46,654 nucleotides of DNA from the NCBI GenBank assembly GCA_024401745.1, contig JAKSKK010000015.1:1-46654 (forward strand), written 5' to 3'. The DNA comes from Bacteroidales bacterium. GTDB lineage: Bacteria; Bacteroidota; Bacteroidia; Bacteroidales; UBA932. How positions within the stretch are numbered: position 1 is the stretch's first letter; each line of letters starts with the position of its first letter. Shown here piece after piece: positions 2,847-36,083 of the stretch. The notes below the pieces were generated by a model that had not been told where the DNA came from, ran no database searches, and saw only the letters and a program-made list of their open reading frames with translations. Both the position numbers and the translations under genes were made by a program.

Positions 2847-4343
2847 ATGGCAACATTATTGCCCCAGTTCCTGGATAGGAAAATCTTCAAGATAGTTGGA
2901 GAAGTGGCCGCCGAGCATGGCGTAAGGGCTTTTGTGATAGGCGGTTACGTGCGCGACTGCTTCCTCTCGCGCAAGTGCGACGACATCGACATAGTGGTCG
3001 AGGGCAGCGGAATCGACTTTGCCCGCGCGGTGGGGGAGAGGACGGGCAAGTACGTGTCGTACTTCAAGAACTTCGGTACGGCAATGCTCCACTTCGAGGG
3101 CGCCGAGATCGAGTTCGTGGGCGCCCGCAAGGAATCCTACCGCCGCGAGAGCCGCAAGCCCATAGTCGAGAACGGCACCCTCGAGGACGATCAGCTCCGC
3201 CGCGACTTCACCATCAACGCGCTGGCACTCAGCCTGCAGCCGGATTCGTTCGGCGAGCTGGTCGACCCCTTCGGCGGAGTGCGCGACCTCTGCAGCGGCA
3301 TAATCCGCACACCGCTTGACCCCGACACCACCTATTCCGACGACCCCCTGCGCATGCTGCGCGCGGTGCGTTTCGCCAGCAAGCTCAGCACCCCTGAACT
3401 GACTTTTACCATAGTTCCCGAGTCGATGGAGTCCATGCGCCGCATGGCCGACAGGCTGAAGATACTCTCGATGGAGCGCATCACCGAGGAACTGAACAAG
3501 ATGCTGATGACCCCGCGCCCGTCGATGGCCTTCCGCCTGATGGACGAGGCCGGGCTGCTGCCTTACATCCTCCCGGAGCTCTGCGCCCTGAAAGGAGTGG
3601 AAACCGTAGAAGGAAGGGGGCATAAAGATAATTTTGAGCATACGCTTGCTGTTCTCGACAATGTCTCGAACAGCAGCGCATGCGCAGCTTTTGATGGGGG
3701 CTCTGCCCCCATAACGCCCCCCGGCGGCCTGTCGGCCGCTGTCTCTCCGGCGAGCTTATGGCTACGTTGGGCAGCTTTGCTGCACGACGTAGGAAAGCCA
3801 GCTTCTAAGCGTTATGAAAAGGGCGCTGGCTGGACCTTCCACGGCCACGAGATAATAGGCAGCAAGATGGTCCCCGGCATATTCAACAGGCTCAAGCTGC
3901 CCATCGACTCCGGCAAGTACGTGCGCAAGCTGGTGTGGCTGCATCTGCGGCCCATCGCCCTCGTCGACGACGGTGTGACCGATTCGGCGGTGCGCCGCCT
4001 GCTCTTCGACGCCGGCGACGACATCGACGACCTCATGACCCTCTGCAATGCCGACATAACATCGAAGAACGAGGCCAAGGTGGCGCGCATAAAGGCCAAT
4101 TTCGAGCTCGTGAAGCAGAAGCTGGTGGAGGTCGAGGCAAAGGACGCCATACGCAACTTCAAGAACCCCATAACCGGCGAGTACGTGATGCAGCTGTACG
4201 GAATCCCTCCCTGCAAGGCCATTGGCGCCCTGAAGGAGATGGTGAAGGAGGCCATACTCGACGGCGAGATAGGCAACAACTTCGAGGAGGCCGACGCCTA
4301 CATGCGCGCCCACGCCGCCGAATTCGGACTGCAGGAGAAATGA
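2847..4343 (+). CDS. cca: CCA tRNA nucleotidyltransferase with HD domain and an in-frame repeat insertion
   Basis: Adds or repairs the 3'-CCA end of tRNAs. The class II nucleotidyltransferase head carries GGYVRD at residues 32-37 and the metal-binding DID at 46-48, followed by RRDFTINAL; the second half holds an HD phosphohydrolase-type domain (LLHDVGKP, FHGHE). At 498 residues it is somewhat longer than usual relatives. The extra length is a Gly/Pro/Ala/Ser-rich stretch of about 25 residues starting near residue 279, between the DNV helix and LWLRWAALLHD, encoded by a GC-rich palindromic repeat (see 3693-3761). The flanking HD motifs are intact, so the enzyme is probably functional. ATG 2847 is chosen because ATG 2843 opens only a short frame. 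The stop overlaps the next start (ATGA). Confidence 0.93.
   Translation: MATLLPQFLDRKIFKIVGEVAAEHGVRAFVIGGYVRDCFLSRKCDDIDIVVEGSGIDFARAVGERTGKYVSYFKNFGTAMLHFEGAEIEFVGARKESYRRESRKPIVENGTLEDDQLRRDFTINALALSLQPDSFGELVDPFGGVRDLCSGIIRTPLDPDTTYSDDPLRMLRAVRFASKLSTPELTFTIVPESMESMRRMADRLKILSMERITEELNKMLMTPRPSMAFRLMDEAGLLPYILPELCALKGVETVEGRGHKDNFEHTLAVLDNVSNSSACAAFDGGSAPITPPGGLSAAVSPASLWLRWAALLHDVGKPASKRYEKGAGWTFHGHEIIGSKMVPGIFNRLKLPIDSGKYVRKLVWLHLRPIALVDDGVTDSAVRRLLFDAGDDIDDLMTLCNADITSKNEAKVARIKANFELVKQKLVEVEAKDAIRNFKNPITGEYVMQLYGIPPCKAIGALKEMVKEAILDGEIGNNFEEADAYMRAHAAEFGLQEK
3693..3761 (+). repeat. Palindromic repeat, copy A, inside cca
   Basis: The first 33 bases (3693-3725) match 15215-15247 except at two positions: a T/C and an A/G that fall on either side of the same hairpin. 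The core is a perfect GGGGGC-TCT-GCCCCC hairpin (3696-3710). It is followed by TAACGCCCCCCGGC, then a second stem GCGGCC/GGCCGC (3724-3739). CCATAA (3709-3714) can also pair with TTATGG near 3756-3761, closing an outer stem of about 50 bases. The element is read in frame as protein (Asp-Gly-Gly-Ser-Ala-Pro and onward). The right boundary is inferred. Confidence 0.75.
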
Positions 4344-5597: not shown

Positions 5598-5638
5598 AAG
5601 TGAAGAATAGCCCGTACTTATATGGCTATTCTTCACTT
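5598..5638. promoter_or_regulatory. Perfect 15-bp inverted repeat ahead of an AraC-family gene
   Basis: The left arm AAGTGAAGAATAGCC (5598-5612) is exactly complementary to 5624-5638 across an 11-base spacer. It ends six bases before the -7 box at 5644, so it covers the place where the -33 element should be. No T-tract follows immediately. An operator for the downstream regulator or a dimeric activator is the likeliest reading; a hairpin acting as a minus-strand terminator is the alternative. Confidence 0.7.
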
Positions 5639-14245: not shown

Positions 14246-14268
14246 TACCTTTAAATCAGTTAATTTTG
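14246..14268 (+). promoter_or_regulatory. Promoter region of the 2-hydroxyacid dehydrogenase gene
   Basis: Two candidates overlap here. TAATTTTG (14261-14268) is an exact -7 match but would place the RNA start at the ATG (14272), giving a leaderless message. TACCTTTA (14246-14253) has one mismatch and would leave a 10-15 base leader. Confidence 0.5.
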
Positions 14269-14271
14269 AAT

Positions 14272-15216
14272 ATGCTTAAGATTGTATATCTCGATGCCGC
14301 CACTTTCGGCGACTTTTCCCTCGAGCCCATTGCCGCCCTGGGAGAGCTTGTGTGCTACCCGACCACCACTGCCCAGGAGGCTCTTGAGCGTGTGGGCGAT
14401 GCTGAAGTCCTGATCGTGAACAAGGTGCGCGTCACCGAGGAACTGCTTGCCGCGGCGCCGAAGCTGAGGCTGGTCTGCGAGGCCGCCACCGGGGTCAACA
14501 ACATCGACCTCGAGGCCTGCGCAAAGCGCGGCATCCCCGTCAGGAACGTGTCGGGATACTCTACCGAATCAGTTGCGCAACTCACTTTCACTCAGATACT
14601 TCGCATGTTCTGCGACGCCACCCGCTACGACGCCTATGTCAAGAGCGGAGACTACACCCGCAGCGGCATCTTCACCGAAGTCTCGGACCCTTACGTCGAG
14701 GCCGCAGGCAAGACCATAGGCATTATAGGAATGGGTGCCATAGGCCAGGCCGTGGCAAGGATCGCGGAAGCGTTCGGGATGAAGGTCATATACTATTCTA
14801 CATCCGGCACGGGGCACTGCACGCTCTATCCCTGCGTCAGCCTCGAGGAACTGCTGAAGAGCAGCGACGTGGTGTCGGTCCACTGCCCGCTCACTCCGGC
14901 CACCGACGGCCTGATAGGGGAGGCACAGCTTGCAATGATGAAGCCCTCGGCATTCATAGTCAACATGGCCAGGGGCGGGATTGTCGCCGAAAAGGCGCTT
15001 GCCGATGCCCTTGATGCGGGCGTGATAGCGGCCGCTGCAGTGGATGTGTACACCTGCGAGCCTATGCCCGCCAGCCACCCGTACATGACGATGGCCCACC
15101 CTGAGCGCATGTTCTTTACGCCTCACGTCGGCTGGGCAAGCCGTGAAGCGATAATCCGCCTCATAGCAAAGGTGGCAGAGAATATCTCCGCCACCTTTGC
15201 TGAGCCGGCTATTTGA
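14272..15216 (+). CDS. D-2-hydroxyacid dehydrogenase, NAD-dependent
   Basis: Predicted to reduce a 2-keto acid (hydroxypyruvate, glyoxylate or similar) with NAD(P)H in the cytoplasm. The 314-residue protein has the split catalytic domain and a central Rossmann fold with GIIGMGAIGQAVA near residue 149. The catalytic Arg lies in NMARGGIV, Glu in VYTCEPMP and His in TPHVGWAS. Length fits hydroxypyruvate/glycerate dehydrogenases better than ACT-containing phosphoglycerate dehydrogenase. The ATG 14272 is used; a TTG at 14266 is less likely. The stop TGA touches copy B of the palindromic repeat. Substrate is not determined. Confidence 0.88.
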   Translation: MLKIVYLDAATFGDFSLEPIAALGELVCYPTTTAQEALERVGDAEVLIVNKVRVTEELLAAAPKLRLVCEAATGVNNIDLEACAKRGIPVRNVSGYSTESVAQLTFTQILRMFCDATRYDAYVKSGDYTRSGIFTEVSDPYVEAAGKTIGIIGMGAIGQAVARIAEAFGMKVIYYSTSGTGHCTLYPCVSLEELLKSSDVVSVHCPLTPATDGLIGEAQLAMMKPSAFIVNMARGGIVAEKALADALDAGVIAAAAVDVYTCEPMPASHPYMTMAHPERMFFTPHVGWASREAIIRLIAKVAENISATFAEPAI

Positions 15217-15283
15217 CGGGGGCTCTGCCCCCGTAACGCCCCCCGGCTCGCTGCGCTCGCAGAGCGCTAACGGGCGTGTTACA
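15215..15283 (+). repeat. Palindromic repeat, copy B, between convergent genes
   Basis: The first 33 bases (15215-15247) match copy A at 3693-3725 with two substitutions. It has the hairpin GGGGGC-TCT-GCCCCC (15218-15232) and then a different second stem (CTGCG/CGCAG around 15251-15262). GTAACGCC near the left can pair with GGCGTGTTAC near 15274-15283. The right end covers the ROK gene's stop codon. It fills the whole 62-base gap between two convergent genes and may also act as a bidirectional terminator there. Confidence 0.72.
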
Positions 15284-36044: not shown

Positions 36045-36083
36045 AAACAATAAAGCCTGCTCATCGAGCAGGCTTTATTGTTT
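36045..36083. terminator. Bidirectional terminator, 18-bp perfect stem
   Basis: 36045-36062 is exactly complementary to 36066-36083 around a 3-base loop. The stem has a GC-rich top (GCCTGCTC/GAGCAGGC) and A/T-rich flanks that supply U-runs on either strand. It lies between the convergent tig and tdh genes. Confidence 0.93.

Follow-up and report, generated by a model that had tools for sequence, protein, structure and literature searches.

The insert found within the cca gene of this Bacteroidales genome is very probably a copy of a dispersed selfish palindromic element, which we call element A and which is tolerated in frame in what appears to be a loop of the encoded enzyme. The window, meaning the whole stretch of 46,654 nucleotides analysed here, is contig C7 of a 63-contig, 1.99 Mb assembly with an estimated completeness of 71.6%, and element A recurs elsewhere in this genome, in a sister species, and in Treponema. 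Its presence or absence between species suggests that it is mobile, and we read it as a new family of selfish DNA resembling the Rickettsia palindromic elements (RPEs).

The carrier is an open reading frame of 498 aa on the forward strand (2847..4343, from the ORF list), assigned to the cca-type nucleotidyltransferases by Pfam (PF01743, PF12627, PF01966) and confirmed in this enzyme class by a PDB sequence search. Its PolyA_pol, RNA-binding, and HD domains are all retained, and the frame stays open through the insert, just as the preliminary description had it; judging from this open frame, the insert is presumably translated. The insertion itself also stands, but its borders are wider than first drawn, with added or rewritten DNA running from ~3665 to ~3752, and the in-frame excess amounts to 21 residues over the 477-aa orthologues rather than to about 23 of some 25. 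From left to right, and always on the forward strand, a target-derived hairpin (3647..3675, from hairpin scoring and orthologue alignment) has its outer arm (3647-3654) in native codons of the LAVL region and its inner arm (3668-3675) as an inverted copy absent from the aligned relatives. It is followed by the left end of element A, CTTTTGA (3688..3694), which by reading precedes the core in most of 39 distinct copies, and by the core hairpin ATGGGGGC-TCT-GCCCCCAT (3694..3712) with its covarying pairs. Then come the conserved linker AACGCCCCCCGGC (3713..3725), partly common to the Treponema copies, the second hairpin GCGGCC-TGTC-GGCCGC (3724..3739), whose arms differ from copy to copy, and an approximate right end (3740..3752) placed by orthologue alignment and residue numbering, and the native LWLRWAALLHD codons start again at ~3753-3756. 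A search of window positions 3600-3850 against Rfam gave a single match of 23.2 bits against a gathering score of 55 (E 0.061), which was judged to be chance. To the right of the insert, the native cca codons at 3762-3792 form an imperfect palindrome of their own, CTACGTTGGGCAGC-TTT-GCTGCACGACGTAG, missing in the relatives read by eye though these encode nearly the same residues.

The two 33-base stretches 3693-3725 and 15215-15247 differ solely at offsets 2 (T/C) and 18 (A/G), which are the two sides of one hairpin pair and make up a compensatory change between T-A and C-G; that they flank the same hairpin had been noticed at the outset. A 29-base pattern shared by both, allowing ≤3 mismatches, has two occurrences in the window, whereas 100 shuffles contain none. 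The expectation that further copies of the core would lie elsewhere in the genome was borne out. With the 63-base insert as the query, BLAST found 25 places, 24 of them with the core (the remaining one, of 14 bases and E 1.3, was left out of the copy count), and a longer query added C14:18330 and C12:74, giving a total of 26 places in this 72%-complete genome, 19 of which match the 23-base core with ≤2 mismatches. Of these, 16 lie in frame in long ORFs of known families, in both orientations, and belong to 14 genes, mostly of the housekeeping kind: cca, lpxB, a WbqC-like gene, galactarate/altronate dehydratase, tilS, atpG, purL, uvrA and dnaX (two copies each), a sigma-54 activator, rsmF, argS, an rlmI-like methyltransferase, and the C-terminal part of an MsrA fusion, this part reading like a YbaK/ProX domain. 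The other 10 places, whose surroundings lay outside the family-model search, were not assigned to a recognised gene; two of them lie at contig ends. Within the window, the second copy (15208..15264, forward strand, borders approximate) lies at the end of a 2-hydroxyacid dehydrogenase ORF (14266-15216), whose stop codon is the left-end TGA of the element (15214-15216); the 3′ end of this gene holds an adjoining hairpin (15165..15201, forward strand) which is taken as target-derived without orthologue comparison.

The general formula of element A is CTTTTGAY-GGGGGYTCYRCCCCC-RTAACGYCCCCCGGC, followed by further short hairpins; by reading, the copies start with CTTTTGAY and finish with RTAACGYCCCC. 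The left end is constant and the right end ragged, the argS and sigma-54 copies stopping directly after CCCCCCG and others continuing. Composite inserts made of several modules are found in atpG, tilS, purL, and galactarate/altronate dehydratase, the last of which has 79 more residues than the orthologue of the relative G022 over the compared stretch. A recurrent companion of ~88 bp, module B, is flanked by complementary arms that vary by copy, and it stands beside element A or alone. Module B was noted at L152 (atpG), L153 (tilS), L154, L155, L163, and L172, and also in the sister-species genes L243 (truB-like) and L247 (comF-like). At L017, L021, and L262, the core stands in tandem, joined by GTAACGGCTGCGCCGTT, itself a small hairpin.

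The stem of the core keeps its pairing while its letters change. In a set of 39 distinct copies, drawn from two Cryptobacteroides species and two horse-faeces genomes, 26 have C-G as the outer pair, 11 have T-A, and 2 leave it unpaired, and an inner pair is C-G in 24, T-A in 10, G-C in 2, and otherwise composed in 3; the copies cluster in subfamilies, so the 11 T-A cases do not amount to 11 separate events, and intermediates are nearly absent. For the second hairpin, the comparison with shuffled tails showed no significant excess (22 of 39 copies vs. a mean of 18 and a largest value of 26). Read forward, the core leaves one of its three frames open (FDGGSAPVTPPG); in the backward reading, none of the three is closed, and PGGVTGAEPPSK or a variant of it is used in 12 of 14 distinct backward cores by manual count (p~2.5e-4 for equal use). 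Both of the other backward frames encode more arginine, so that this bias is most plainly explained by selection on the peptide.

None of 29 aligned same-genus cca orthologues carries the repeat peptide, which agrees with the preliminary description of an insertion rather than a family-wide loop. Among the 96 same-genus genomes with a cca match (own genome included), 19 align in separate pieces, with breaks close to residues 277 and 302, and five of these 19 ORFs have 477 aa; the loop is naturally variable, with ~7-12 aa in the nearest relatives and up to ~37 aa of unrelated sequence in others. The core is absent from 98 of 100 other same-genus genomes, a sample of a larger group, and each of the remaining two has a single copy with two mismatches. 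For ten genes (cca and nine others), the compared relatives are without the insert; the nine further genes were compared with stretches of G022, G094, and G079, the set of genomes varying by gene, and for purL the absence holds among the matches listed.

The sister species, Ca. Cryptobacteroides choladohippi (G101, contigs JAGHSF), whose Cca is 91% identical, has 26 matches to a 261-base query holding modules A and B. The insert site is common to both species in rlmI, lpxB, atpG, and the MsrA fusion, and in rlmI, lpxB, and the MsrA fusion the core is shared as well. In tilS, the sister has the modules in another order and orientation, and in purL it has module B in place of A; both species have inserts in the dnaX linker, not evidently at the same site, and the sister is without inserts in argS, rsmF, and uvrA. 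Its inserts differ in length from those of the window's genome by -30 nt in cca, +18 in rlmI, +66 in lpxB, and -93 in atpG. In the sister cca, a relic is left in which the second hairpin and the right border are recognisable and the core stem is broken, still in frame. The simplest reading of this relic would be that the cca insertion predates the split of the two species and then decayed under selection for the frame; a hot spot may also have been hit independently in each.

That the repeat belongs to a new family, as had been proposed, is supported by these copies, but "Bacteroidales" turned out to be too narrow a label, since the same core is frequent in Treponema. An exact scan of GGGGGYTCYRCCCCCRTAACGYCCCC against 84,980 species genomes (the window's own genome perhaps excluded) gave 74 stretches, 63 of which are labelled Treponema or bear another Spirochaetota name; the remaining 11 belong to Ca. 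C. choladohippi (7), horse-faeces Bacteroidales (2), Caldilineaceae (1), and a record labelled Proteobacteria (1). A 79-base Treponema element has 24, 31, and 29 matches, respectively, in three genomes filed as Treponema bryantii (Treponemataceae), and these copies are unlikely to be an assembly artefact because all three are recorded under strain names, without a MAG label. From a reading of their products, purF, carA, carB, and metH would be among the T. bryantii genes with in-frame examples, and carB is filled in one genome and free of the insert in another, with flanks that align at 92% and 75%. The stems GGGCGCA/TTGCGCCC, GCCCGCA/TTGCGGGC, and GGCCGCA/TTGCGGCC of the Treponema copies enclose one and the same loop, ~10 bases before the core. 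Given that the 26-base identity spans the non-palindromic link TAACG, a common origin of the Bacteroidales and Treponema copies is likelier than convergence. We also observed in T. bryantii purF and metH (L310, L313, L308) another in-frame palindrome, GGTTTCGATAC...CTCAACCACC, with a changing inner hairpin, which fills a loop that holds the element-A type in another genome. A phage or plasmid vehicle was considered and rejected: the exact 26-base pattern has no match in viral contigs, and a 61-base query (window positions 15200-15260) has none in phage or plasmid records.

A further trace lies just outside the element. Within 100 bases of a core, perfect hairpins with arms of at least 8 bases reach ~18 times the density found in distant parts of the same loci (17 in 4.2 kb vs. 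10 in 43.7 kb), the 17 including the element's own, namely two tandem cores and three downstream hairpins. In a scored test of the 70 bases before the core, with a cut-off of p≤0.05, a hairpin was found upstream, on the CTTTTGA side, at 15 of 21 own places and at 10 of 11 sister places, against less than 5% of random window stretches; on the downstream side, it was found at only 3 of 21 and 2 of 11, respectively. The test omits five of the 26 own places (three tandem partners and two at contig ends) and, in the sister, two of 13 loci without a located core; when tandem neighbours are then removed (two own and three sister places), the upstream hairpin is present at 13 of 19 and 8 of 8. The test was framed after the own copies had been seen, and its replication in the sister is partial, three sites being shared (tilS, rlmI, lpxB). 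Outside Bacteroidales, the excess is weak: among 64 copies, mostly from Treponema and including the Caldilineaceae and Proteobacteria records (one near-end locus was dropped), 33 reach a score of at least 6, vs. 23% of controls, and 7 a score of at least 8, vs. 4%.

At the sites read closely, the arms of this hairpin are 8-20 bases long. In cca, atpG, purL, the sister's lpxB, rlmI, and uvrA, the outer arm consists of native codons that orthologues also have, and the inner arm falls in DNA that was added or rewritten; for rlmI and uvrA, where relatives hold a few residues at that point, the inner arm may have arisen by rewriting and not by addition. The MsrA fusion has a similar hairpin and no empty orthologue for comparison; in tilS, the best hairpin has both arms in native codons; and the hairpin falls short of significance at argS, rsmF, the sigma-54 gene, dnaX, and two of the places not assigned to a gene. 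The corresponding empty sites of relatives have a significant hairpin in 0 of 19 cases, five relatives without an anchor having been dropped. In this empty-site test, the element's core itself supplies the best hairpin at four own sites (cca, uvrA, tilS, and lpxB), so that the contrast of filled with empty is clean solely for rlmI, atpG, purL, and the sister's lpxB. A general richness of the window in hairpins was also tried as an explanation and rejected, given that the window has 5 long hairpins vs. 2-8 in five shuffles, and the relatives' loci ~10 per equal length. Because the empty sites are without a significant hairpin and the window is not hairpin-rich, we assign the hairpin to the insertion. 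Two perfect hairpins of the window lie away from element A, at 5598-5638 and 36045-36083, with arms of 15 and 18 bases, the latter resembling a terminator.

A short folded DNA with one fixed end and one variable end, accompanied by a one-sided hairpin built from the target, suggests a fold-back route of insertion. The element would be recognised as a folded single strand and not through the sequence of its stem; the 3′ end of a broken host strand would fold back and copy a stretch of itself, and would next switch template to the element, leaving the order outer arm, loop, inner arm, element. Selection would then purge any insertion that disrupts the reading frame or lands in the core of the protein, and later on the hairpin would decay with the frame being kept. 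We put this copying route forward tentatively, at rather less than an even chance, given that the inner arm of rlmI and uvrA may be rewritten and that the empty-site contrast is clean at some sites only; our confidence in the element itself is not affected by this. The full proposal, a selfish family common to Bacteroidota and Spirochaetota that moves by fold-back without a recognised transposase or reverse transcriptase, is a speculative one that we consider doubtful as a whole. If true, it would mean that conserved enzymes gain new stretches of peptide again and again through fold-back, each insertion with its own host-derived hairpin. To our knowledge, nobody knows how the RPEs move, and we know of no such transposition route described for protein-coding palindromes.

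Several other readings have to be weighed. A native, family-wide loop with a chance likeness to an intergenic repeat would be consistent with the variable length of the cca loop, ~37 aa in some same-genus relatives, but it is contradicted by the lack of the repeat peptide in all 29 relatives and by the in-frame inserts in 13 other genes, and it is refuted by a copy number of 26, leaving it a nearly negligible probability. We likewise hold it very improbable that the inserts are kept as useful, for example in mRNA regulation or as a protein tag: the one preferred backward frame (12 of 14) could be taken in its favour, but the purging of arginine-rich peptides also accounts for that preference, the inserts vary in length, orientation, and peptide, and those shared in cca and atpG are shorter and eroded in the sister. 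Another reading has hot-spot loops being refilled by unrelated palindromes, with the sister cca insert a separate event and no single moving family at all. The T. bryantii purF and metH sites, where one genome has the element-A type and another genome a palindrome of a different kind, together with the reordered and reoriented modules of the sister tilS and the module B at its purL site, speak for such refilling; the sister cca relic, however, agrees with the copy in the window across the second hairpin and at the right border, rlmI, lpxB, and the MsrA fusion have both site and core in common, and a core shared by 26 places requires copying from a common source, which makes this reading unlikely.

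The remaining two readings accept a moving element and give it another mover. A REP-like element mobilised by a RAYT (a tyrosine Y1 transposase) and landing in genes by chance would account for short dispersed hairpins, which are intragenic in other phyla too according to the available part of PMC3733652. The window's genome has one Y1_Tnp match of 24.2 bits over a cut-off of 23 and one below it, and the horse-faeces genome G103, which has a core copy, has one match over the cut-off (31.1 bits) and one below. (The weak Y1_Tnp matches of the own genome, L269 at C23:45982 and L272 at C61:9122, lie in ORFs of ~300 aa.) In contrast, PF01797 is absent from the sister, from the horse-faeces genome G102, and from the three T. 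bryantii genomes, all of them with copies, whereas the copy-free G094 has a sub-threshold match; in total, it was matched in 3 of the 10 genomes searched, and the copies read have no GTAG tag. Target-derived inverted copies are, as far as we know, no feature of RAYT products. A RAYT as the common mover is not supported, and we consider this reading improbable. Much the same low probability goes to a SINE-like retroelement, whose RNA would end in the A-rich complement of CTTTTGA and be reverse-transcribed at a nick: it fits the constant left end, the right end that stops at various places, and the hairpin standing mostly at the fixed end, but RVT_1 (PF00078) was found in 0 of 8 genomes including those of T. 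bryantii (the window's genome being 72% complete), vs. 3 of 14 control genomes with a match.

The best-known protein-coding palindromes are those of Rickettsia and Wolbachia, and intragenic REPs are known elsewhere. The phenomenon is now seen in two phyla of gut bacteria, named T. bryantii strains among them; a literature search outside subscription journals and preprints found no counterpart in Bacteroidota or Treponema. That conserved enzymes accept from ~20 to ~80 extra residues bears on the origin of new protein segments. The analogy with RPEs drawn in the preliminary description was apt, since element A is palindromic and lies in frame in variable loops of conserved genes. According to the available parts of PMC3767692, PMC2229807, and PMC10969869, the ten RPE families are palindromic, dispersed, and in frame in conserved housekeeping genes, at sites conserved among close species. 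Like them, element A is in frame inside conserved genes (16 of 26 places) and has a palindromic stem-loop with covarying pairs. It occurs in a different phylum, and no Rickettsia is named among the 74 stretches of the exact scan of 84,980 species genomes. Judged by description, it also differs in layout: unlike the long stem-loop of 105-146 bp with terminal inverted repeats described for RPEs in the accessible part of PMC2229807, its shared core measures ~33-60 bp and is followed by separate short hairpins up to a variable right end.

The WPEs of Wolbachia, protein-coding palindromic repeats in the portions seen of PMC2996958 and PMC3767692, are alike by description only. The intragenic GTAG/CGTC REPs, short hairpins in frame in repair, tRNA-synthetase, truB, and uvrA genes (PMC3733652, in part), recall element A in uvrA and argS and module B in the sister's truB-like gene; however, most REPs are intergenic in that same part of the source, vs. 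16 of 26 places of element A in genes, and our copies, judged by reading, show no evident GTAG or CGTC tag of the unpaired kind. PARCEL repeats of Mollicutes and others are likewise palindromic coding repeats across distant lineages (PMC2996958, available part), and they are there tandem, amphipathic protein repeats, in contrast to the single inserts of element A in housekeeping loops. MITEs are small, non-autonomous, and sometimes form in-frame fusions (PMC10969869, available part), whereas element A has no visible constant terminal inverted repeats or target-site duplication in the filled and empty argS, rsmF, uvrA, rlmI, and carB sites compared by eye. Element A also bears a mechanistic trace, the one-sided inverted copy of host DNA, of which the available parts of the sources on RPEs, WPEs, and REPs make no mention, and it is this host-built hairpin, together with the empty sites of the relatives, that makes the mechanism of insertion testable.
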